Assembly: GCA_017397695.1 (NCBI GenBank) | Contig: JAFQIF010000157.1 | Location: 1 to 36,099 of the forward strand | Direction of reading: 5' to 3' | DNA from: Clostridia bacterium | GTDB taxonomy: Bacteria; Bacillota_A; Clostridia; Christensenellales; Aristaeellaceae | Length of the DNA stretch: 36,099 nucleotides | In this document: positions 1 through 12,839 of the stretch, piece by piece | Layout of the letters: each line of letters begins with the position of its first letter | How positions within the stretch are numbered: the first letter of the stretch is position 1 | The notes under the pieces: model-generated | The model's database searches: none | What the model saw: only the letters and a program-made list of their open reading frames with translations | What the model was told of the DNA's origin: nothing | Program-made: the position numbers and the translations under genes

Positions 1-441
1 AGCGCCGTCGCCCACGACAGCAACAACATGATAGTCTTCATTCTGAAGATCGCGCGCACGCGCAAGGCCGAGCGCCATAGAGATCGCCGTCGAGGAATGG
101 CCCGTATCAAACAGGTCATGCTCGCTTTCCGCCCGGCAGGGGAAACCACTCATGCCATGATAGGACCTGAGTGAGGCAAACAGCTCCTGACGACCAGTGA
201 GGAGCTTATGGGTATATATCTGATGACCGACGTCAAAAAGCAGCTTATCCACCGGGCTGTTGAACGCACGATGCAGCGCAATTGTCAATTCCACATTGCC
301 CAGATTGGACGCCAGATGTCCACCCTGCCTGGATACGGTATCAATAATCGTCTGCCTGATCTCTCTGGCAAGCGCATTGCATTCTTCATTGGAGAGTTTC
401 TTTACATCATCAGGCCCATGAATTGTAGATAGTATCGCCAT
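1..441 (-). CDS. dxs: 1-deoxy-D-xylulose-5-phosphate synthase, N-terminal part (cut by window edge)
   Basis: DXS condenses pyruvate and glyceraldehyde 3-phosphate using thiamine diphosphate, the entry step of the cytoplasmic MEP isoprenoid pathway. The 147 codons present read [17 protein letters not shown], then [18 protein letters not shown] and [15 protein letters not shown], followed by [16 protein letters not shown] and the start of the GDGA diphosphate-binding motif where the window ends. These are hallmark N-terminal DXS motifs. The ATG directly follows the TGA of the upstream membrane-protein gene, and the ribosome site AAGGAGG lies inside that gene's end, so the two are translationally linked. 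The family is about 620 residues, so roughly three quarters of the protein lies left of the window. ispA is in the same cluster, which fits an isoprenoid operon. Confidence 0.95.
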
Positions 442-1029
442 TCACAGTGCCTCCTTACGTGTTTTCATTTTCTTCTTGGTTTTTCTCTTCTTTTTCAGCT
501 CAAACACAGCCATGAGCCTGCCGACGAACAGCACAATTCTGCCGCTGTATTCAATGGCAATACCCTTACCATATGCCTTGCCGCCAATCATAAAGGCGGA
601 CGTAAATGCCGTAATGAGCATCGACGCTACAGCGCTTTTAAGACCAAGCGATACCAGATACACCGCAATGACAGACCCCGCAGAACCGGAAATAATGCCC
701 ACAATATCGCCGACAACATCGTTGAGGATGCTGGAAACGCGCTCCGCCTTGCGAACAAGGCGCAGCGCCTGCTTCGCCCCCGGAATACGCTTGGAAGACA
801 TAGAGATAAACGGCTGATCATCGGCAGAGGTGACAGCCGTACCGATGACGTCCGTCATGATGCCAAGCAGAATCAGGATAATCAGGGACAAAAGCGCCAC
901 AAACAAGCCAGCCGACTCGACAAACGCACTCGTCACAAAGGACATGACAACAGAAAGACCAAAGGAAAGACAAACGACAATCAGAATCCATCTCTGCTTG
1001 CTTTGCCGCTCCTTCTTCTTTTTGCTCAC
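442..1029 (-). CDS. oapA: OapA-like integral membrane protein (OLE RNA-associated protein)
   Basis: The protein has 195 residues from the GTG at 1029, which has GGAG about 10 nt upstream; a TTG one codon earlier is an alternative. Seen in sequence: a lysine-rich N-terminus (SKKKKER), TM segments at about 14-34 and 42-58, a cytosolic stretch with DVIGTAVTSADDQPF (about 60-74) and a basic helix ending in NDVVGDI, two more TM segments at about 109-128 and 133-150, and a very basic C-terminus (KKKRKTKKKMKTRK). OapA is the membrane protein encoded next to OLE RNA; it binds the RNA and carries it to the membrane. Size, basic ends, the acidic DVIGTAVTSAD segment and the position between a 600-nt RNA and dxs all match. 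The segment at 59-100 also resembles DUF21/CNNM magnesium-transport proteins, a known likeness of OapA. The assignment is from memory of the family plus context. Confidence 0.85.
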   Translation of the reverse strand: MSKKKKERQSKQRWILIVVCLSFGLSVVMSFVTSAFVESAGLFVALLSLIILILLGIMTDVIGTAVTSADDQPFISMSSKRIPGAKQALRLVRKAERVSSILNDVVGDIVGIISGSAGSVIAVYLVSLGLKSAVASMLITAFTSAFMIGGKAYGKGIAIEYSGRIVLFVGRLMAVFELKKKRKTKKKMKTRKEAL

Positions 1030-1059
1030 CAAAGCTTCACTCCGAAAAACTCTAAATCT

Positions 1060-1087
1060 CAAAAAAGCTCACGTACTCGCGTGAGCT
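1060..1087 (-). terminator. Rho-independent terminator of the OLE RNA candidate
   Basis: On the minus strand an 8-bp perfect stem AGCTCACG/CGTGAGCT (1087-1080 with 1073-1066) closes a six-base loop and is followed by six T. It lies about 30 nt before the oapA start, so oapA and dxs are reached by read-through or by a further start site. Confidence 0.88.
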
Positions 1088-1661
1088 ATATTTTTCATAA
1101 TAGGTGGCGATACAACAAATAAACCTTGCGGCATAGGTTCGGTAGGCTTTCCCCGCCCGTTACTCCCTGTCGCCATAGGAGCGGTTTCCCTTGAAAACAG
1201 ACGTTGCGCCGTTTCCGGACGCAAGACCGAATTACCACTGAGCGCACACTGTAATCTCTGTCGTACCCTCATCGACAGTCTAGGAGCTTTCCTCGGCAGC
1301 GTCGGCTGTCTCCTAGCCTCTTTTGCAGTCCTGGTTTCACACAGCGATCGCAGCGGTTTCCGTGAGCCTTTGGTCACCGCACGTTGTTCCATGATCCGCC
1401 ACAACCACTCAAGGCAGGCTACACTGCAGGCAGCTTGGGTACCACCATGCAGGTTTTCATGATGCAAATGCATCATGCCTCCACGAAAAATGGGTCGAAC
1501 TCCGTCATGCCATTGACGGCCGCCCATAATTCTTACTTCCAGCACCGACCCCCGACTGGGCGTCAGCAGCCCGTGCCAGAAACTTCATCGATATGCCCTT
1601 TAACGGATTTTTAGCCCCGTCTTCAAAGACAACTCTGCTGACTAGAATACTGCACCACCTG
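1060..1661 (-). ncRNA. ole: Candidate OLE RNA (ornate large extremophilic RNA), about 600 nt
   Basis: No credible protein fills 1030-1766. The minus strand instead shows a complete RNA gene: an extended -10 promoter (1668-1696), an expected start near 1661, and a hairpin-T6 terminator at 1060-1087, giving about 602 nt. An 8-bp helix can join the ends: 1653-1660 (AGGUGGUG) pairs with 1102-1109 (CGCCACCU). Local hairpins include 1458-1465/1470-1477 (8 bp), 1502-1507/1514-1519 (6 bp), 1280-1286/1310-1316 (7 bp, enclosing CAGC-GUCG-GCUG) and 1204-1211/1216-1224, a GAAA tetraloop stem with one bulge. Known OLE RNAs are about 610 nt and sit between ispA and oapA-dxs, exactly as here. OLE forms an abundant membrane RNP. 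I identified it by locus, size and structure and have not matched it to a covariance model. Confidence 0.82.
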
Positions 1662-1667
1662 ACAGGC

Positions 1668-1696
1668 ATTATACCATATCTGTCAAGCCTCCGCAA
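1668..1696 (-). promoter_or_regulatory. Sigma-A promoter of the OLE RNA candidate
   Basis: On the minus strand TTGCGG (1696-1691) and a perfect TATAAT (1673-1668) are separated by exactly 17 nt, and TGG before the -10 gives an extended -10. The start would fall near 1661, one base before the strand of the closing helix. A second TTGACA lies inside the spacer at a wrong distance of 7 nt and is not the -35. Confidence 0.85.
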
Positions 1697-1766: not shown

Positions 1767-2213
1767 TTATGCCATCAATGTGCCGATCAGAATACCCAGC
1801 ATCGCGCCGGCAGCAACCTGAACCGGCGTATGACCGACAAGCTCCTTGAGATGCTCCTCGTCAAGATTAAGTCCGTCGCTGGTCAGCCTGTCCAGCAGGC
1901 GATTGAGCACGGCTGCATTCTTTCCTGTTGAGCGGCGAACGCCCGCCGCATCATACATCACGACGCCGGAAAAGCAGAACGCCAAAGCAAATACCGAGGA
2001 ACCGAATCCTTCAGTAAAGCCGATCATCATCAGCATGGCGCAAGTCATCGCAGAATGGGAACTGGGCATACCGCCGGAACCAAGCATGCGCGAACCGTCA
2101 AACTTTTTGCTGATCGCCAGCGTCAGAATGACCTTGAGTGCCTGCGCAGTCGCCCACGCAATCACTGCCGCCTGAATGATGCGGTTGCTCAGAATCTCAA
2201 GCACTACGCTCAC
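1767..2213 (-). CDS. Divergent PAP2 family (DUF212) membrane protein
   Basis: A 148-residue membrane protein of the DUF212 'divergent PAP2' family. Seen: PSSHSA (about 50-55) in the position of a PAP2 phosphatase motif, FSGVVMYDAAGVRRSTGKNAAVLN (about 81-104, quoted in parts: YDAAGVRR and AAVLN) and the C-terminal LKELVGHTPVQVAAGAMLG. TM segments lie at about 15-33, 55-75 and 130-147. The start is GTG with a GGGGG ribosome site 7 nt upstream. Family members are common between ispA and dxs in Clostridia. Catalytic function is unproven; a lipid-pyrophosphate phosphatase is only suggested by the motif and by the isoprenoid neighbours. It is separated from ispA by 40 bp, so it is probably cotranscribed, and is followed by the OLE promoter. 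Confidence 0.9.
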   Translation of the reverse strand: MSVVLEILSNRIIQAAVIAWATAQALKVILTLAISKKFDGSRMLGSGGMPSSHSAMTCAMLMMIGFTEGFGSSVFALAFCFSGVVMYDAAGVRRSTGKNAAVLNRLLDRLTSDGLNLDEEHLKELVGHTPVQVAAGAMLGILIGTLMA

Positions 2214-2253: not shown

Positions 2254-3168
2254 TCAGCTCTTGCGCGTACGCATCTGCGCAGCAAAGCCATGCATGAAGG
2301 CCGCGCGCTCGCCAAAGATCTCCAGCGCCTTTTCTGCCTCATCCCACAGATGTGCAGAGCGCTCTTTTGCAGCCTGAACGCCCACCAGTGCCGGCCAGGT
2401 CATCTTGCCCCGCTGCGCATCCATACCAGTCTGCTTGCCCAGAACAGCAGCATCGCCTTCCACATCCAGCAGATCATCATCGATCTGAAACGCGATACCT
2501 ACGCAATAGCCAAAGCGGCGCAGCGCAGCGAGCTGCTCCTCGCTGGCACCGGCGATATGCGCAGCAGCCACGAGCGGCGCAGTCAGCAGATCCGCCGTTT
2601 TATGCGTATGAATATAAAGCAGACGATCCGCATCTGGCTCCATATGTTCGCTGGACAGATCCAGACTCTGACCCGCAATCATGCCGCTGACACCGGCACG
2701 ATTGGCAATTGCTTCCGCCGCCAGCACATGGCCCTGCAGATTATCGGAATGCGCGGCCGCATTGGCCAACAGACTCTCGTATGCGAAATTAAGCAAACCA
2801 TCACCAGCCAGAATGGCATGTCCCACACCGTACACCTTGTGGTTGGTCGGGCGGCCGCGGCGGTAATCGTCATCATCCATGCCCGGCAGATCGTCGTGGA
2901 TCAGCGAATAGGTATGGATCATCTCCAGCGCAACAGCCGGAACCTTCGCCTGCTCCAGATCGCCGCCCAGCATCTCGCAGGCAGCCAGCAGCAGCACGGG
3001 ACGAATGCGCTTTCCGCCAGCAAGCAGGCTGTAGCGCATGGACTGACACAGATACTGCGGGATCACGCCCTCTTCCTTCGGACAAACCTCACTGGTCTCA
3101 GGCATCAGACGCTCGATGGTTTCCTCCACCATGCCGACATATCGGCTGTACTGCTCAAGATACTCCAT
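2254..3168 (-). CDS. ispA: Polyprenyl (farnesyl/geranyl) diphosphate synthase
   Basis: Adds isopentenyl diphosphate units to dimethylallyl/geranyl diphosphate in the cytosol to give geranyl or farnesyl diphosphate, precursor of undecaprenyl carriers. The 304 residues show GGKRIRP (51-57), the first aspartate-rich motif DDLPGMD (92-98) preceded by LIH, the RRGRPTNH stretch, and the second aspartate motif FQIDDD (227-232), so both Mg2+ sites are intact. An open frame runs upstream to 3369, but that is the xseB shadow. The ATG at 3168 has GAGGGG seven bases upstream, and an ATG two codons earlier is too close to that site. It overlaps xseB by 14 bp, the standard xseA-xseB-ispA arrangement. Length is normal for the family. 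Confidence 0.95.
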   Translation of the reverse strand: MEYLEQYSRYVGMVEETIERLMPETSEVCPKEEGVIPQYLCQSMRYSLLAGGKRIRPVLLLAACEMLGGDLEQAKVPAVALEMIHTYSLIHDDLPGMDDDDYRRGRPTNHKVYGVGHAILAGDGLLNFAYESLLANAAAHSDNLQGHVLAAEAIANRAGVSGMIAGQSLDLSSEHMEPDADRLLYIHTHKTADLLTAPLVAAAHIAGASEEQLAALRRFGYCVGIAFQIDDDLLDVEGDAAVLGKQTGMDAQRGKMTWPALVGVQAAKERSAHLWDEAEKALEIFGERAAFMHGFAAQMRTRKS

Positions 3169-3400
3169 GTTCATTCCCCTCAAACGTTTCAATTTCTGCC
3201 GTGTCCGGATCGATGGTCTCAATCCGTTTTTTCTGCATGGCAAGGAGCTGCTCCAGCTGCGCATGCAGCGCAACACCCTGTTCGTACAGGGCGATGGATT
3301 CCTCGAGTGAAAGTTCGTTCCCGCTGAGTTTCTCCACCAGAATGCCAAGTTCCTGCATTCCTTCCTCAAAGGAAATCGGCTTTTTCTTCTTAGCAGCCAT
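3155..3400 (-). CDS. xseB: Exodeoxyribonuclease VII small subunit
   Basis: An 81-residue helical protein that binds the XseA C-terminal region in multiple copies. Exonuclease VII degrades single-stranded DNA in both directions to acid-soluble oligonucleotides. Seen: lysine-rich N-terminus, then ISFEEGMQELGILVEKLSG and LSLEESIALYEQGVAL, the signature of the XseB family (FE..L..LE.IV..LE.....LEESL.LYE.G). Its ATG overlaps the TAA of xseA in a TAATG junction, and the end overlaps ispA by 14 bp, so it is tightly coupled to both. Length is typical. Confidence 0.96.
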   Translation of the reverse strand: MAAKKKKPISFEEGMQELGILVEKLSGNELSLEESIALYEQGVALHAQLEQLLAMQKKRIETIDPDTAEIETFEGNEHGVS

Positions 3401-5455: not shown

Positions 5456-6421
5456 TTATTCCTCCTTACTCTTTCGGAGCATTCCAGCGCCCAGAAGCGC
5501 TACCCCGACTGCATTATCGCCGGAGAGTTCCGGCCTGGCAAAGCAGAGTCGGCAATTCAGTCTGCGCTTTTTCGCGCGCTTTTCCAGCATTTCGCGCAGC
5601 AGCGTGGAAGAAGCCACGCCGCCAGCGAGCAGAGCCTGACGGCAGTGCGTCTTTTCACAGGCCGCCTCGATCTGGCGCTCAATTGTTCTGCACAGGAAAT
5701 CGAAGACTTCCGCCGCAATTTCCTCATTGCTCATGCTGCCCTCGTCCATCCAGCGCATGATCTTATTCTCCGCACCAGCCATGCAGCAATCCACACCCTT
5801 GATTGACACGCCGATCAGGCCGCGCACTTTTTCTTCCTTCACACCTGCCATTGCCAATTTCTCCAGCGACGGGCCTGCAGGAAACGCCAGATTCATGCGC
5901 ACACCTGTGCGATCCACCAGCTGACCCGCATGCAGATCAAGACTGCCGCCCAGCAGCGTCAGATTTCCCTGCTCACTGAGCAGGATTTCCGTTGTACCGC
6001 CGGATAGATGCAGCGCCAGAAACGGCGCATGGGGATCGATGTTTGAATCCACCATTGCTGCACGCACATGCCCTTCCTGATGGCTGACAGGATAAAAAGG
6101 CACGCGCAGCAATGCTGCAGCTGCGCGCGCCTGACTTTCTCCTGCCCTGAAAACGGGCATATACGAATCCTGTGCCGGTCGTGGACGCGTGCTTGCACAA
6201 ACCGCAGCAATCTCAGCCTGCGGCGCTTTCGACATCACATCCGTAATCATATCCGGCAGATTTTTGACATGCTGAAACAAGCCCTGAGACTGCATCAGCC
6301 CGCGTTCGCCGGCTTCCACGGTCAGCAGACGGCGCGAAGACGCAATCAGCCTGCCAGAGGTGGACACAAGCGCAGCGGAAGTCGTATAGCAGCTGGTGTC
6401 AATACCCAGTACCGCCCTCAT
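5456..6421 (-). CDS. TsaD/Kae1-family paralogue (peptidase M22 fold)
   Basis: A 321-residue protein of the ASKHA/Kae1 fold. Seen: GIDTSCYTTSAALV at the N-terminus (phosphate-binding loop), SHQEGHVRAA with H114 and H118 in the place of the metal-binding H-x3-H of TsaD, LHLSGGTTEILL (second phosphate loop, TsaD usually has VSGGHT), FPAGPSLEKLA, and LLAGGVASSTLLREML. TsaD proper makes the threonylcarbamoyl adenosine of tRNA with TsaB and TsaE; those partners are not nearby. A paralogue of this sort is often seen between nusB and folD in Clostridia, and its job is not known. ATG overlaps the nusB stop by 4 bp. It could be the only TsaD of the genome, but differences in the motifs argue for a paralogue. 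Confidence 0.82.
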   Translation of the reverse strand: MRAVLGIDTSCYTTSAALVSTSGRLIASSRRLLTVEAGERGLMQSQGLFQHVKNLPDMITDVMSKAPQAEIAAVCASTRPRPAQDSYMPVFRAGESQARAAAALLRVPFYPVSHQEGHVRAAMVDSNIDPHAPFLALHLSGGTTEILLSEQGNLTLLGGSLDLHAGQLVDRTGVRMNLAFPAGPSLEKLAMAGVKEEKVRGLIGVSIKGVDCCMAGAENKIMRWMDEGSMSNEEIAAEVFDFLCRTIERQIEAACEKTHCRQALLAGGVASSTLLREMLEKRAKKRRLNCRLCFARPELSGDNAVGVALLGAGMLRKSKEE

Positions 6422-7112: not shown

Positions 7113-7943
7113 TCACGCCTCTTCCTGAACGATCGCCTCTTCAGTCGCAGCCTCTTCCTGAACGATCGCCTCTTCAGTCGCAGCCTCTTCCTCAATAGCT
7201 TCCAGCGCGGTCTCTTCCTGCACCGGCGCTTCCTGTTCAGCCGGCTCGCACGCAGTTTCTTCGGCAGGAGCCTCTTCCTGTGCCGGCTCATCCTTGGCTT
7301 CTTCAACGACGAGAACCTGCTCGCCCTCATTGGCCTCGGACAAAGATTCATGGCCCAGCATGGAAGCCGGAATAGCAAACGGAGAATCAGCAGTCTTGGC
7401 ATTGGCCGGGGTCGCACCGTCGACAAAGACGCGCACTTCCTTGACCTTCACACCGGAGCAGGCCTCCAGATAGCGCTTGATCTGCTTCTGCAGGGAAGAG
7501 ATCGCCAGCGGCATGCTGATGTCGGACTGCAGGGCAATGTGCACATCCACGCGTACCGTCTCCTCATCGCTGAACAGCGAAGAAGAAACAACCTTGATCT
7601 CAGGATGCTGATTCAAGCAGCGCTGTACAAGCGCCTCCAGCGCCTTCACGGAGATACGAACCATGCCGTTCTCATTATGCTGGATAGCGAAGCTGCTGGA
7701 ATGCTTGCGCTTCTTGGGCAGGATGATACAGAACAAACGCAGCGCAAAGAGCACCATCACTGCAGCACCGCCAAGCAAAGCGCCCTTGACCTTCAGGGTC
7801 ATATTGGAAATGCGGCCCAGCAGCACAACCGCCGGATCGACGGTAATCTTGTCATACACAAGCGCCACAGCGACAGCGGCGACGCAAAGCGCGCACAGAG
7901 AACAGAACAAAATCCAGAAACGGTCTCTCACGGGATGCTTCAT
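7113..7943 (-). CDS. amaP: AmaP-type alkaline shock membrane anchor protein
   Basis: AmaP anchors Asp23 at the membrane. The 276-residue protein has TM segments at about 10-30 and 53-75, then a soluble Asp23-like domain (MVRISVKALEALVQRCL, VRVDVHIAL, LQKQIKRYLEACSGVKVKEVRVFV), and from about residue 205 a low-complexity tail of glutamate, alanine, proline and glutamine ending in 11-residue repeats (EEAIVQEEAAT). ATG at 7943 has a GAGGAGG site; a TTG six codons earlier lies before this site and is not used. It is followed by DUF2273 with a near overlap and preceded by asp23. The acidic tail is longer than in the staphylococcal protein, as far as I recall. Confidence 0.88.
   Translation of the reverse strand: MKHPVRDRFWILFCSLCALCVAAVAVALVYDKITVDPAVVLLGRISNMTLKVKGALLGGAAVMVLFALRLFCIILPKKRKHSSSFAIQHNENGMVRISVKALEALVQRCLNQHPEIKVVSSSLFSDEETVRVDVHIALQSDISMPLAISSLQKQIKRYLEACSGVKVKEVRVFVDGATPANAKTADSPFAIPASMLGHESLSEANEGEQVLVVEEAKDEPAQEEAPAEETACEPAEQEAPVQEETALEAIEEEAATEEAIVQEEAATEEAIVQEEA
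7117..7193 (-). repeat. 33-bp tandem repeat in the 3' end of amaP
   Basis: Two identical 33-bp units (7117-7149 and 7150-7182) and an 11-bp partial third unit encode EEAIVQEEAAT repeats. Exact DNA identity suggests recent slippage duplication and possible length variation between strains. Confidence 0.9.
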
Positions 7944-7988
7944 TGCGTATTTCCTCCTCAAATCTTGCGGTCAGCAGGCGCAACGCCT

Positions 7989-8498
7989 TTATTCCTGATC
8001 CTGCTTTTCTTCCTGCTCGTCGTCTTCGGTTTCAACGATCTCCACAGGCGCCTGTTCAGTCTCAATCACGTGCTCTTCATCCTCGTCAGGCGCAGCCATC
8101 GCGGCCTTTTGGCTGAGCTGCATCTCCTGATTTTCCTTCTCGAAGCTCACGCCCACCACATGCAGATCAACCTTTTCCACATGCAGACCGGTCATGGACT
8201 CGATGGACTTACGCACATTCTCCTGCGCATTGCGGCCCACCTTCTGAATCGGCATACCGTAATCGACGGTCACGCTGACGTCGACATTGACGTCGCCGTT
8301 TTCCATATCCACACGAACGCCACGCGGGGTTCTTCCCTTGCCGATAATACCGGACATCGACGTTCCGCCGACAATACCGGAAATGCCTTCGACCTCTGTC
8401 GTCGCTACGCTGACGATGGTAGAAATGACTTCGTTGGCGTATGTGATCTGACCCTTGTCCTGATCTTTTTCCATATCAATGGTCATGTTTTCGCTCAT
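7989..8498 (-). CDS. asp23: Asp23/Gls24 family envelope stress protein
   Basis: Asp23/Gls24 proteins are abundant cytosolic proteins that form a layer under the membrane through AmaP. The 169 residues show GQITYANEVISTIVSVATTEVEGI (in parts: YANEVISTI and TEVEGI), GVRVDMENGDVNVDVSVTVDYG, PIQKVGRNAQENVRKSIESMTG and VEKVDLHVVGV, the full Asp23 domain. From about residue 130 the tail is strongly acidic (EDEEH, ETEDDEQEEK), like the AmaP tail. ATG at 8498 has a GGGAGGTG site; an open frame upstream is not used. A good promoter sits 29-57 bp upstream, so this starts a new transcription unit after spoIIIA. Confidence 0.93.
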   Translation of the reverse strand: MSENMTIDMEKDQDKGQITYANEVISTIVSVATTEVEGISGIVGGTSMSGIIGKGRTPRGVRVDMENGDVNVDVSVTVDYGMPIQKVGRNAQENVRKSIESMTGLHVEKVDLHVVGVSFEKENQEMQLSQKAAMAAPDEDEEHVIETEQAPVEIVETEDDEQEEKQDQE

Positions 8499-8526
8499 AT
8501 CAAGCACCTCCCTATGGTTATTCATT

Positions 8527-8555
8527 AGTATAACAGATTTTTGTCCACTGCACAA
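8527..8555 (-). promoter_or_regulatory. Sigma-A promoter before asp23
   Basis: On the minus strand TTGTGC (8555-8550) and TATACT (8532-8527) are 17 nt apart, in the 66-bp gap between spoIIIAH and asp23. It would allow asp23-amaP-DUF2273-nusB and the following genes to be expressed in vegetative cells independently of the sporulation operon. Confidence 0.7.
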
Positions 8556-8564
8556 TCTTCTCAT

Positions 8565-9074
8565 TCATTTTTTTGCAAGAATGATTTTGACCGCATCCGG
8601 TGAAACACCTGCATGAGAAGCCACTGCATCCATGATCCTCAGGCGATTTTTCTCGTTTTCAGCAATCTGCCAGGGTACAATGACGCTCAGAATCCTTTCC
8701 TCGCTAAGAATTGCAACCACATCCGAAAAGCCCATGCTGCACAGCAGCGTGCAAACGGACGCTTCTGTTTCCATGCGCTGGACAAGCGCTGCCATTTGTC
8801 TGAGTGCCTGATTGATCGTTTCGCTGTCGGCGCCCGGTTGATCAGCAATACTCTGAAGCTGCGCAAGCAGCGCTTCCCTCTTTTTCGCAAGGGCGTCTGC
8901 AGACTCGGCCAGCGACTGCGCAGAAAGCGCCTCCTGCGATATTGTCTGAACCGTCACCGGTACGCTCACCGCCTGAACTTCAGGCTTCGCCGCACCTGAA
9001 TATGCACTGAGCGTCAGCAATAGCAGCAGCGCCGCACAGCCAAAGCGGCGCATTTTTCTTTCCAGTTTTGTCAT
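8565..9074 (-). CDS. spoIIIAH: Stage III sporulation protein AH
   Basis: SpoIIIAH is a mother-cell membrane protein whose outer domain binds forespore SpoIIQ and forms a ring of the feeding-tube channel. The 169 residues have one N-terminal TM (about 10-27) and a soluble domain that begins with an alanine/glutamate-rich coiled segment (ESADALAKKREALLAQLQ) and ends with the ring-building fold: ASVCTLLCSMGFSDVVAIL and VSPDAVKIILAKK, matching SpoIIIAH endings. ATG at 9074 overlaps the spoIIIAG stop as ATGA, with GGAGGGTGGAA just upstream. It is the last gene of the operon. Shorter than the B. subtilis protein (about 218). Confidence 0.9.
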   Translation of the reverse strand: MTKLERKMRRFGCAALLLLLTLSAYSGAAKPEVQAVSVPVTVQTISQEALSAQSLAESADALAKKREALLAQLQSIADQPGADSETINQALRQMAALVQRMETEASVCTLLCSMGFSDVVAILSEERILSVIVPWQIAENEKNRLRIMDAVASHAGVSPDAVKIILAKK

Positions 9075-9460
9075 TTCCACCCTCCCACCGCTATGCTTAC
9101 GGACGCAGGAGCAACCCCCAGCAGCGCGCACAGCGCTTCACGCAGCTGCATTTCGACCAACGGATCGTCCGCCCCCTGCGCTACGGCAATCGCGCCGCAG
9201 GGAATCTCCTGGATCCTTTCCGCGGCGAAGCTTCCGCCGGATACCGCAACTTCACGCATCCGGATCGTTACCTCCACCCGCCCCGCACCTTCCATGGCCG
9301 ACAGCGTCCTACTCACCCTTCCCTCCAGCGGAAGCACCGGTTTTGCTCGCACCATACTCATGCATGCAGCAAGCAGCAGGCAGGCGGCAGCAAGCAGAAC
9401 CGGAGGCGTCAGCACGGCGCGCAGCCTCGAAAGGAAATCCCGCAAGCGCTCACCTTCCAT
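9071..9460 (-). CDS. spoIIIAG: Stage III sporulation protein AG (short form)
   Basis: SpoIIIAG forms a large ring in the intermembrane space between mother cell and forespore. Here it has only 129 residues (229 in B. subtilis). Seen: a TM at about 18-36, then LEGRVSRTLSAMEGAGRVEVTIRM (in parts LEGRVSRTL and GAGRVEVTI), a short linker, and GAIAVAQGADDPLVEMQL, REALCALLGVAPASVSI, the typical C-terminal SpoIIIAG core (V.AEGG.DP.V...I..A...LLG....I.V). The missing part corresponds to the insertion that makes the beta-triangle barrel in longer members. It lies 3 bp after spoIIIAF and overlaps spoIIIAH by 4 bp. Confidence 0.88.
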   Translation of the reverse strand: MEGERLRDFLSRLRAVLTPPVLLAAACLLLAACMSMVRAKPVLPLEGRVSRTLSAMEGAGRVEVTIRMREVAVSGGSFAAERIQEIPCGAIAVAQGADDPLVEMQLREALCALLGVAPASVSIAVGGWK

Positions 9461-9463
9461 CTT

Positions 9464-9673
9464 TTATTTCATCAGCGTCTGCAATATGCCATGGAGGTCC
9501 TGCTGCCCAGCAAGCGCCTGCACCAGGCCTTGACATCCATCAATCACCAGGTGCAGCATCAGCAGTCCGCCAACCATGCGCAGACCATCCGCCATGCGGT
9601 GATCGCCCATCGCCAGCTGCACAAGCGCGCACACAGCACACAGCGCACACAGCCGCGCAGTCAGCGTCATCAT
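9464..9673 (-). CDS. spoIIIAF: Minimal SpoIIIAF-like protein (two TM segments only)
   Basis: A 69-residue protein exactly in the spoIIIAF slot between spoIIIAE and spoIIIAG. Seen: a first hydrophobic helix (LTARLCALCAVCALVQLAMG) and a second (GLRMVGGLLMLHLVIDG), separated by DHRMAD. This fits the N-terminal hairpin of SpoIIIAF (helix, short turn, then a FV..ITGLLLI-like helix), but the outer soluble domain of about 130 residues is absent. The start ATG (9673) has GAGGGGG about 10 nt upstream, and the stop is followed three bases later by spoIIIAG, so the gene looks intact, not a fragment. Assignment depends on position and helix pattern. Confidence 0.72.
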   Translation of the reverse strand: MMTLTARLCALCAVCALVQLAMGDHRMADGLRMVGGLLMLHLVIDGCQGLVQALAGQQDLHGILQTLMK

Positions 9674-9688
9674 CTGGTTATTTCCCCC

Positions 9689-10840
9689 TCACCTGAGCAT
9701 CACAGTCAGATTGCCAACGAGCAGAATCTGTACGATGAGCAGAAAATACATCGTACCCACACAGAGCATCGTAATCAGAAAGAGCACAATCGTACGCGAA
9801 AAATCACCGATAGCCCGGATGATCTCTCCATCAGCGACGGGCTCGAGCAGCGCAGCGCTGAGCTTAAGGACAAAGACCGCACATAGTGTACGCATCATTG
9901 GTCCAAGAATGGCGCCGAGCAAGACGAGCACCGCCGTCACGCCAAGCGCGTTCTTTACGATCAACGTACATCCGACCAGCGTGTCCATGGTATCTGAAAA
10001 CATGCCGCCGACAACAGGCACGAAATTGTCTACTGCATATTTTGCCGCGCGAATCACCACGCCATCCAAGGACGCACTGCATACCCCCTGCAGCGACATT
10101 GCCCCCAAGAATACCGTAAAGCTGACGCCCAGAAGCCAGCAGACAATAGACCGCAGCAATTGCGCCATGCGCGTGAGATGTGCTCTGTCGGACAGGTGAT
10201 TGACCGCAGTGACCGCACAGGTACACATGACCAGGCGCAAAATCACTTCCCGCGAGAGAAACACCATGCTGCCCGACGCAGCAACAACCACCGGATGCAA
10301 AAATGCCGACGACGCATTTCCCCCCAACGCGGTAAGAAGCGTGAGCAGAATGGGCAGCAGCTTGTCCATACGCTGTGTCATGGTGGTAATCGTTTGCCTT
10401 GCATGCTCCAACTCGGAAAAGACCAATAGGAGCACCGGAATCAGAATCAAAACAAAGCATACGCTGCGCGAAAGGGATGCCAGATTCGCTCTGCTGGATG
10501 AAAGCATATGGACAAGCAGACTGGAAAGCAGAACCGGCAGCATGATCGAAAGCATCAGAACGCCTAAGCCAGAAAGCGCATCAAAAAAAGCGCTCAACAC
10601 ACCGGCAACCGCATCTTCCGCGGAAACCATCTCACCTGAGGCAAACCTGCGTACTACGGCTTCGATATCAAGCGGCTGCGCATAGCCGGGAATGCTCAAA
10701 TCGCCCATCCCGGAAAAATCCAGCCCGGCAATCACCTCATCGACGGCCGCCTGCAGCTTCTCATCCACATAGTCCTGCGCATGCCCAGTTGCAGGCCAGA
10801 AAAGCAGCAGCGCAAACAGCGCGAGCCACATGCGCATCAT
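9689..10840 (-). CDS. spoIIIAE: Stage III sporulation protein AE
   Basis: A polytopic membrane component of the SpoIIIA-SpoIIQ channel. The 383 residues begin with a signal peptide (MMRMWLALFALLLFW, likely cleavage near GHA-Q) and a short outer segment (DYVDEKLQAAVDEVIAGLDF), followed by about seven to eight TM segments. Family marks include SVCFVLILIPVLLLVFSE, LLPILLTLLTALGGNASSAF, LLGVSFTVFLGAMSLQGV, AAKYAVDNFVPVVGGMFSDTMDT and LKLSAALLEPVADGEI. The ATG at 10840 overlaps the spoIIIAD stop (ATGA). An upstream open frame to 10963 is a shadow. Length fits the family (about 400). Confidence 0.93.
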   Translation of the reverse strand: MMRMWLALFALLLFWPATGHAQDYVDEKLQAAVDEVIAGLDFSGMGDLSIPGYAQPLDIEAVVRRFASGEMVSAEDAVAGVLSAFFDALSGLGVLMLSIMLPVLLSSLLVHMLSSSRANLASLSRSVCFVLILIPVLLLVFSELEHARQTITTMTQRMDKLLPILLTLLTALGGNASSAFLHPVVVAASGSMVFLSREVILRLVMCTCAVTAVNHLSDRAHLTRMAQLLRSIVCWLLGVSFTVFLGAMSLQGVCSASLDGVVIRAAKYAVDNFVPVVGGMFSDTMDTLVGCTLIVKNALGVTAVLVLLGAILGPMMRTLCAVFVLKLSAALLEPVADGEIIRAIGDFSRTIVLFLITMLCVGTMYFLLIVQILLVGNLTVMLR

Positions 10841-11223
10841 TGCAGCACTTCCACTGCCATCTGCGTCAGCTCCATAAAGATCGGAACAGCAACCCCAAGA
10901 AGCGCAAGCCTTCCCAGAAACTCCGCTCGCGCCGCAATCGAAGGCGCATCCATATCCTGACATACCTGAACAGCCAATTGCGTAATGAGCACAATGCCCA
11001 CCGCCTTGAGCATAACCCGGTAGTACCTTGCCTCAAGCCCGAGCGCAGAAAGAAATGAACGAATGGTCTGCACGTATGCGCCCAGCTGCGGCAGCACTGC
11101 GCCCACCACCATGACACCGAACGCCACGGACAAAAGCCCCGCCGACTGCGGATGCATCTGTCTGAGCACCATGACCAGCACAGCCGCCAGCAGGCAAACG
11201 CCGATCAGACGAAGCCATTCCAC
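10837..11223 (-). CDS. spoIIIAD: Stage III sporulation protein AD
   Basis: A small membrane protein of the SpoIIIA complex. The 128 residues have four hydrophobic helices and the family marks AAVLVMVLRQMHPQSAGLLS, YYRVMLKAVGIVLITQLAVQVCQDM, RAEFLGRLALLGVAVPIFM. The start is the GTG at 11223, with GAGGTG six bases upstream; an ATG frame to 11280 would run into spoIIIAC and is not needed. Typical SpoIIIAD is about 130 residues. It starts 10 bp after the end of spoIIIAC and overlaps spoIIIAE by 4 bp. Confidence 0.93.
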   Translation of the reverse strand: MEWLRLIGVCLLAAVLVMVLRQMHPQSAGLLSVAFGVMVVGAVLPQLGAYVQTIRSFLSALGLEARYYRVMLKAVGIVLITQLAVQVCQDMDAPSIAARAEFLGRLALLGVAVPIFMELTQMAVEVLQ

Positions 11224-11233
11224 AGCAGCCACC

Positions 11234-11431
11234 TCAATATAAGCCGAATATGCTCTTGACGTTGTTGAGCAGCTGGGCAATCAGATCCACCACCAGAAAC
11301 ATGACCACTGCCAGACCGGCCACTGAAGAAAGGACGGCAATATCATCCCGCCCAGCCCTTTGCAGCACCTGATTGACAGCAAAGATGAGAATGCCCACGC
11401 CTGCAATCTGAAACAGCAGATCAATATTCAT
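11234..11431 (-). CDS. spoIIIAC: Stage III sporulation protein AC
   Basis: A 65-residue protein with two TM segments (about 5-22 and 32-52). MNIDLLFQIAGVGILIFAVN, the polar turn QRAGRDDIAVLSSVAG and VVDLIAQLLNNVKSIF match SpoIIIAC almost end to end. It is a short membrane subunit of the engulfment channel. ATG has AGGAG nine bases upstream. It lies 15 bp after spoIIIAB and 10 bp before spoIIIAD. Confidence 0.96.
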   Translation of the reverse strand: MNIDLLFQIAGVGILIFAVNQVLQRAGRDDIAVLSSVAGLAVVMFLVVDLIAQLLNNVKSIFGLY

Positions 11432-11446
11432 ACAAGCCGACTCCTA

Positions 11447-11968
11447 CTAAATCAGAATGAGAAATACCGACGCACCAGCTGCCAGGCCGAGCGTGCGCAT
11501 CAGACAGACACGCCTGGAGCATTCCCTGGCAAGTTCTTCCTCCCGCATGCGCAGGCGCTCGTCTGCGCTGTCGATCAGACGAATCTGCTCCGGCAGGCCA
11601 GAACGTCCCAGTTCTGAAATCACGCCCTCAAACGCAGACCTGTCCTCCTCACTGAGCACGCCATAACCGGGAAAGTACGCACACTCGCCGGCAAACAGCA
11701 GCATCAGCTGTGGATTGGCACTCACGCGCAGCCGCTTTGCACAGCGATGCAGCAGGCGAGTCAGTTCCCTCTCTTGCGACGTCGCCCTCAGATCAATCCG
11801 CTCAAGCAAATCAGGCAGACCAGGCTGCTCATAGCGGATGATGCCGTTCATGCGCAGCAGGCATCTGCGCATAGCGCGAATCCAACGCACGCGCTGCTTC
11901 TCCCCGTCTGAAAGCAGAAATCCGATCGCGCTGACCGCAATCATTGCCATCATCGCCACATCCCACAT
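11447..11968 (-). CDS. spoIIIAB: Stage III sporulation protein AB
   Basis: A mother-cell membrane protein of the SpoIIIA complex with a fold like type II secretion protein GspF. The 173 residues start with a TM (VAMMAMIAVSAIGFLLS), continue with RWIRAMRRCLLRMNGIIRYEQPGLPDLLERI (in parts), a helical cytosolic domain with LFAGECAYFPGYGVLSEED, and end with a second TM (TLGLAAGASVFLILI), as in the family. The ATG at 11968 has GGGAGGGAG six bases upstream. A longer open frame to 12421 is a shadow of spoIIIAA. Its first 140 bp overlap spoIIIAA in another frame. Confidence 0.92.
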   Translation of the reverse strand: MWDVAMMAMIAVSAIGFLLSDGEKQRVRWIRAMRRCLLRMNGIIRYEQPGLPDLLERIDLRATSQERELTRLLHRCAKRLRVSANPQLMLLFAGECAYFPGYGVLSEEDRSAFEGVISELGRSGLPEQIRLIDSADERLRMREEELARECSRRVCLMRTLGLAAGASVFLILI

Positions 11969-12839
11969 GCTGCTCTCCCTCCCATTTTCTTCCCGCCGCA
12001 TCACACACACACTGCACGCAGCCGTGTCTGCCAAGCAAAACAATCCAATCGAATGTACCCGCTTCCAGCAACCTGCGAATCGGAGGTCGCCCCACCGCCT
12101 CAGACATGCTGCCTGCATGTGCCGTAAGCACCATTCCCACGCCGCAGCGCGCGGCATCGAGCACCGCATCCACATCCTCTGGCCTGCCAATCTCGTCAGC
12201 AGCGAGCACCTGCGGCGCCATTGAGCGCAAAAGCATGGGAAATGCCCACGCTTTTTCCACTCCGGCAAGCACATCCGCTGCACAGCGTGCACCACCAGCA
12301 AGCAGTTCCTCCCGCTCATCGGCAACGGCAACATGCAGTCCCCTTTCCTGCACAAGCCAGATGATCGCGTCTCGCAGGGCAGTCGTCTTCCCGCAGCCTG
12401 GTGCACCCAGCAGCAGCACACGTGAGGGCTTTCCTGTCTGATCGATCAAAAAAGAGCGAAAGCTGCGCGACGCATCGGGAACATGGCGCGAAATGCGGAT
12501 GCATACCGAAGAGACGGCGCCCATATGCATCCGCCCATCATCCCCACGGGCCATCCTGCCGCACACGCCTGCCCGATGTCCCTCCGGCAAAGGGATATAA
12601 CCCTCTGCCATCTGTGTTTCACAGCTATAAAGCGCATATGCGCTGAGCGCCGCAAGCACATCTTCCATATTCAATACGCAGGCAATTTGCTTTTTCTTTC
12701 CGCAGATGATCAATTCTACCGCCAGTCCGGCATATATTCGGATTTCCTCCAGCTGGCGCGCATCTTCCTCGTCCAGCTCTAGCAGCTTTTCTGCAAGCGC
12801 CTGCGGCAGTCTTCTGCAAAGCAAAGCCCGGTAAGACAT
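11829..12839 (-). CDS. spoIIIAA: Stage III sporulation protein AA (ATPase), with a C-terminal extension
   Basis: SpoIIIAA is a secretion-type ATPase thought to drive the SpoIIIA channel from the mother-cell cytosol. Seen: an N-terminal part with EGYIPLPEGHRAGVCGR (about 79-94), Walker A GAPGCGKT (145-152), VADEREELL, the Walker B-like VLAADEIGRPEDVDAV, and LTAHAGSMSEAVGRPPIRRLLEAGTFDWIVLL (in parts), all SpoIIIAA marks. The family usually ends around residue 300. Here residues 291-336 run on across the start of spoIIIAB and look like out-of-frame translation. Either the overlap is real or the natural stop was lost by a frameshift. The gene follows a strong terminator, and no sigma-E promoter could be fitted in the 35 bp left. 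Confidence 0.93.
   Translation of the reverse strand: MSYRALLCRRLPQALAEKLLELDEEDARQLEEIRIYAGLAVELIICGKKKQIACVLNMEDVLAALSAYALYSCETQMAEGYIPLPEGHRAGVCGRMARGDDGRMHMGAVSSVCIRISRHVPDASRSFRSFLIDQTGKPSRVLLLGAPGCGKTTALRDAIIWLVQERGLHVAVADEREELLAGGARCAADVLAGVEKAWAFPMLLRSMAPQVLAADEIGRPEDVDAVLDAARCGVGMVLTAHAGSMSEAVGRPPIRRLLEAGTFDWIVLLGRHGCVQCVCDAAGRKWEGEQHVGCGDDGNDCGQRDRISAFRRGEAARALDSRYAQMPAAHERHHPL

Follow-up and report, generated by a model that had tools for sequence, protein, structure and literature searches.

The stretch of DNA analyzed here (the window) comprises 36,099 nt of the Clostridia bacterium assembly GCA_017397695.1 (contig JAFQIF010000157.1, positions 1 to 36,099), near one end of which a sequence-only reading had proposed a gene for OLE RNA, a large noncoding RNA of bacteria, beside its partner gene, oapA. 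The minus-strand genes were found to be ordered folD, xseA, xseB, ispA, a DUF212 gene, ole, oapA, and dxs (Table 1). The proposed 737-bp region without a protein was confirmed at 1030-1766, extending from the predicted GTG start of oapA (1029) to the end of the DUF212 gene. Within this gap, the Rfam OLE model RF01071 was matched over its full length (model positions 1-616 of 616) at 1674-1088 on the minus strand, scoring 458.8 bits (cut-off 50; E-value 1 × 10−131), and it was the sole Rfam family above cut-off in the window. Judged from the TATAAT at 1673-1668 and from the terminator, the RNA would start near 1661 and end near 1061, for a length of about 600 nt; this agrees with the RNA gene of about 602 nt with promoter and terminator that had been predicted. 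The placement of the locus between ispA and dxs held in that dxs lies downstream of oapA, but the DUF212 gene separates ole from ispA. OLE RNA plus oapA is the correct identity of the locus, and the element was correctly identified from the raw sequence.

Table 1. Features of the ole-oapA locus and its flanking genes in the window
Feature	Position	Strand	Remarks
dxs, N-terminal part	2..441	-	PF13292 224.5 bits; extends past window edge; downstream of oapA
oapA, 195 aa	442..1029	-	predicted GTG start; CNNM-like membrane protein
ole gene, predicted OLE RNA transcript of ~600 nt	1061..1661	-	Rfam match 1088-1674; predicted ends, based on -10 box and terminator
Intrinsic terminator, ole/oapA junction	1061..1087	-	8-bp stem, 6-nt loop, T run
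P3/P3.1 3′ strands	1297..1313 (1313-1306 + 1300-1297)	-	94.0% of 536 cells paired
Short hairpin, probably P7	1458..1477	-	occupies the place of a stem ~20 nt longer in most OLE RNAs elsewhere in the order
P3/P3.1 5′ strands	1625..1640 (1640-1637 + 1632-1625)	-	covariation with 1313-1306 + 1300-1297
ole promoter	1668..1696	-	TTGCGG 1696-1691; 17-nt spacer with CTTGACA 1687-1681; extended -10 TGGTATAAT
DUF212 gene (divergent PAP2 family), upstream neighbor of ole	1767..2213	-	PF02681 161.9 bits
ispA-type farnesyl diphosphate synthase	2254..3369	-	open frame, true start probably internal; NF045485 323.4 bits, cut-off 275

The distribution of OLE was examined through relatives of OapA and through a sample of genomes from the order of genome G001. 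Among the best 120 of 2027 OapA relatives, the closest protein displayed 99% identity over 95% of the query, and the few named sources were Candidatus Spyradocola, Candidatus Ventricola, and Clostridia or Clostridiales bacterium. The 16 loci found through OapA were from uncultured Clostridia, Clostridiales or, for L016, Bacillota, with animal rectum or caecum named for five; OLE was detected in all 16 genomes, as a partial match in G004. In the order sample, OLE was present in 59 of 101 genomes. Published work reports 2,822 OLE-bearing Bacillota genomes and maps OLE across the Bacillota classes, Negativicutes excepted (PMC11332333). A host from Negativicutes was considered for the window and discarded, as the relatives that bear names belong to Clostridia or, in the case of L016, simply to Bacillota. 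The suggestion that the locus widens the range of OLE was rejected in view of (i) the nearest named relatives being uncultured Clostridia, (ii) the 59 positive genomes of the order, and (iii) the published Bacillota map; the locus adds a member to a family that is already well described, and OLE is common in its order. For comparative analysis, 45 OLE RNAs were aligned: that of the window, 15 of the 16 OapA-found loci (the OLE of L004 is cut at the locus end), and 29 of 30 loci of the order sample (L077 duplicates L001). The 15 close sequences of this alignment, the window included, are termed the clade; the remaining 30 are the other loci.

The protein predicted next to the RNA was present as described, with basic ends and the segment DVIGTAVTSADDQPF, and its proposed assignment to OapA was upheld. 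A DxxxD motif (D104 and D108) was invariant in the 34 OapA sequences aligned, and grouping away from OapA was not seen. Because of their spacing, these two residues probably correspond to the PM1 residues D100/D104 of Halalkalibacterium halodurans OapA. The DxxxD motif is described as the mark separating OapA from CNNM domains, which are said to lack it (PMC11332333). At an E-value of 0.001, CNNM (PF01595) was the sole Pfam family matched, at 24.2 bits and thus under its cut-off of 28.4, and no NCBIfam family was found for OapA; comparison with the PDB by sequence gave no match up to an E-value of 1. An AlphaFold2 model built from the 34 sequences reached a predicted local distance difference test (pLDDT) score of 85.8, and its best PDB fold matches were the CNNM/CorB proteins 7m1t, 7m1u, and 7cff, a match that has its limits and concerns a predicted fold. 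Neither a CBS nor a CorC domain was found in the 195 residues by Pfam profiles at an E-value of 0.001 or by fold comparison. A CNNM-like fold has already been published for H. halodurans OapA (PMC11332333), and the modeled fold repeats this known result. By tblastn, an OapA relative was detected at 44 of 45 OLE loci (L004 counted, the window not), the exception being L080, whose sequence ends 123 nt past OLE.

The junction of ole and oapA was found by direct scan to carry a terminator, with a stem at 1087-1066 and a T run to ~1061. Using a folding test, a terminator-like hairpin was detected at this junction in 15/15 clade loci versus 5/29 other loci, the latter count being generous because the hairpin of L082 falls in the coding part. 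A stricter perfect-stem test identified the terminator in 14/15 clade loci versus 3/30 others, with L005 failing because its hairpin lies farther downstream. As the clade is closely related, gain of the terminator may have been a single event. The same-strand order of ole and oapA with a terminator between is also the layout of terminator-type riboswitches, and the noncoding stretch could control oapA as a long 5′ leader or riboswitch instead of acting as a free RNA. We regard this as very unlikely, since 24 of the 29 other loci were without a terminator before oapA by the same folding test, which argues that termination is not a conserved switch, and since, in H. halodurans (PMC9723947), OLE is known as a free component of a ribonucleoprotein (RNP). 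Where PMC10898510 discusses terminators, it concerns genes other than ole/oapA. With respect to junction length, L005 was found to have ~250 extra bases from the OLE end to the terminator compared with the other clade members.

The alignment also allowed P3/P3.1 to be tested independently by sequence comparison; the two stems P3 and P3.1 total ~12 bp and have been proposed to cross the membrane (PMC12265935). Stem names throughout are our own assignment from that text. The P3/P3.1 columns are unpaired in the Rfam structure line; the pairing was drawn by eye from the window sequence, where 12/12 pairs are formed, and then counted over the alignment. Across the 45 RNAs, 94.0% of the 536 cells were paired versus a shuffled mean of 71.5%, and sliding the strands by 1-3 columns reduced pairing to at most 55.8%. 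Cells changed on both sides numbered 138 versus a shuffled mean of 41.8, a value that none of 500 shuffles attained; the weakest measure was the number of pairs with both-side change (10 versus 8.2), reached by 28 of 500. The shuffles ignore kinship; the slid controls keep kinship, yet also favor a structure drawn from one member. Overall, these comparisons support P3/P3.1 as a conserved helix, and they are silent on membrane crossing.

Two regions of the RNA were found to differ in the clade from most of the other loci, and both bear on whether the locus encodes a decayed or reduced OLE, corresponding to one of the published variants 1 and 2, that no longer forms a full RNP. First, the RNA matched is 587 nt and has one hairpin that most of the order carries in a form ~20 nt longer: the P7-candidate segment measured 31-33 nt in 14/15 clade sequences versus 49-60 nt in 25/30 others. 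The segment of L014 was cut by the script at an earlier GGAG and displays the same short hairpin in the alignment, and among the five other loci outside 49-60 nt, only L080 has a truly short segment, the remaining four having been truncated early by the script. Second, the P9 tip (window ~1360-1371, minus strand), a reported dimer contact, carried GGCC in 23 of 45 tip segments and in 0/15 of the clade. RGCU was present instead in 14/15 clade sequences, with L013 having neither; the tip of the window, GGCU, is self-complementary only with G-U pairs. Among the 22 tips without GGCC, a Watson-Crick self-complementary stretch of at least 4 was found in 10 (shuffle mean 9.1, reached by 210 of 500 shuffles); when G-U pairs were allowed, the count was 20 versus a shuffle mean of 13.5 (0 of 500), in sequences that are related. 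Folding P9 alone gave inconsistent structures. Set against the shorter hairpin and the missing GGCC are the full coverage of the model at 458.8 bits, conserved segments common to the relatives, and the partner proteins described below; a published 390-bit cut-off is tied to its authors' own model and is not exactly transferable to this score (PMC11332333). The region near P5, in which the OapC-binding kink turn of OLE RNA would lie, was present in the alignment.

The search for oapB suggested by the sequence-only reading was run in the 16 related genomes, and the protein was found in 10 by protein search, lying between map and infA at the loci inspected. In the six genomes without OapB, infA was also missing or cut at the contig start, such that OapB was present in all 10 genomes with a whole infA locus. 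Its best solved relative was OLE-associated protein B (7k9b, E-value 1.2 × 10−9). The KOW family PF00467 gave 10 matches in 9/16 genomes (one match in eight of these) and was not useful as an OapB probe, as most of the matching frames have a length that, we presume, suits ribosomal protein L24. Proteins of the L7Ae family, to which OapC belongs, were detected in 15/16 genomes, and bS21 was found in 16/16. By comparison, variant OLE clades are described as largely without OapB and OapC (PMC11332333), and we consider a reduced OLE extremely unlikely at this locus. In 6/16 genomes, CNNM proteins exceeded the Pfam cut-off, their resemblance to MpfA being one of length only; MpfA is reported as depleted, not absent, in OLE species (PMC11332333).

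The promoter region was next compared across the clade. TATAAT and TG were conserved in 15/15 sequences, the spacer TTGACA in 14, and TTGC in 13, while the flanks were variable. The TATAAT was positioned at the same distance upstream of OLE RNA in 14 sequences and one base nearer in one. In the window and 13 relatives, the promoter spacer contains CTTGACA, located 7 nt ahead of TATAAT, and among the loci compared the exact form in the spacer was restricted to the clade. For the 30 other loci, a TTG was detected 17 nt from a −10-like box in 20, and exact TTGACA at the spacer position of the ole promoter in none, although the −10 anchor is uncertain in several; the nearest sequences were those of L073 (1 difference) and L066, L068, and L081 (2 differences). 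A generic promoter scan, which reported 2 promoters in total versus a shuffle mean of 2.0, missed the ole promoter because it fails the −35 rule of the scan.

The exact motif with its −10 box, CTTGACANNNNTGNTATAAT, was found to have one match per genome, at the ole start, in 13 of the 16 genomes; it was absent in G004, where ole is truncated by the contig end, in G011, whose box has diverged, and in the distant G016, and its reversed control had no match in the 16 genomes. Within the window, the exact promoter motif occurred only at ole, with one further site at up to 3 mismatches. A looser form, TTGCNNNNNCTTGACANNNNTG, gave 13 matches in 12/16 genomes, of which 11 lie at ole; the 2 others are about as many as we estimate for chance. 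No regulon for the spacer motif was found in its exact form across the 16 genomes, a search that weaker sites would escape. In the element CTTGC-N5-CTTGACA-N4-TGGTATAAT, CTTG is repeated one helical turn apart, a geometry that we take to fit an OmpR/PhoB-type response regulator. It is possible, if doubtful, that in this clade ole has become an insulated gene with its own switch, in which the terminator would separate the RNA from oapA and a dedicated regulator, perhaps of this kind, would act through the element kept at ole to set the OLE RNA level independently of OapA. The clade promoter box is a modest lead that could point to a regulator of OLE.

When compared with the OLE/OapA system of H. 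halodurans, the locus was found to be similar in (i) its full-length covariance match, adjacent oapA, P3/P3.1, and A-rich P4 loop; (ii) the OapB, L7Ae-type, and bS21 proteins of the window's relatives; and (iii) the possession by ole of its own promoter, as published for that species (PMC9723947). It differs in its one shorter hairpin, its P9 tip, the CTTGACA of its promoter spacer, and its intrinsic terminator, as the 3′ end of H. halodurans OLE is reportedly processed (PMC11332333). OapA, in turn, resembles the Mg2+ transporters MpfA/CorB/CorC of the CNNM family in its predicted membrane fold and weak PF01595 similarity, and differs from MpfA (CNNM-CBS-CorC) in that tandem CBS and HlyC/CorC domains were not found in its 195 residues. 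The best explanation, which we hold to be highly probable, is a complete OLE RNP locus in which the RNA would work with the adjacent OapA. The ole gene would be transcribed from its own sigma-A-type promoter and end at its own intrinsic terminator, both as suggested by conserved sequence, and the RNA has the known OLE architecture, as the covariance model and covariation show. By analogy with the family, it would work with OapA at the cell membrane, and RNP assembly there, dimerization, and a role in Mg2+, cold, and alcohol stress may likewise apply. Since OapA is predicted to have the CNNM/CorC/MpfA membrane fold and gave no match to a CBS or CorC domain, the RNA may plausibly take the place of the regulatory domains that MpfA carries and act as the regulatory component of a divalent-cation/stress-response device, a hypothesis that builds on the one published for MpfA.

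Elsewhere in the window, a TsaD-like protein is encoded beside folD (5456-6421, minus strand) and scored 140.1 bits versus the TsaD equivalog cut-off of 296.1; it is perhaps a divergent paralogue. Further along the minus strand (7113-12839) are sporulation stage III genes, with SpoIIIAA, AB, AE, and AH recognized, followed by two Asp23-family genes, the kind to which yqhY presumably belongs. The sporulation genes suggest that the host is a spore former. Such genes are reported to correlate with OLE (PMC11332333), and yqhY is listed among OLE-linked genes (PMC12265935).
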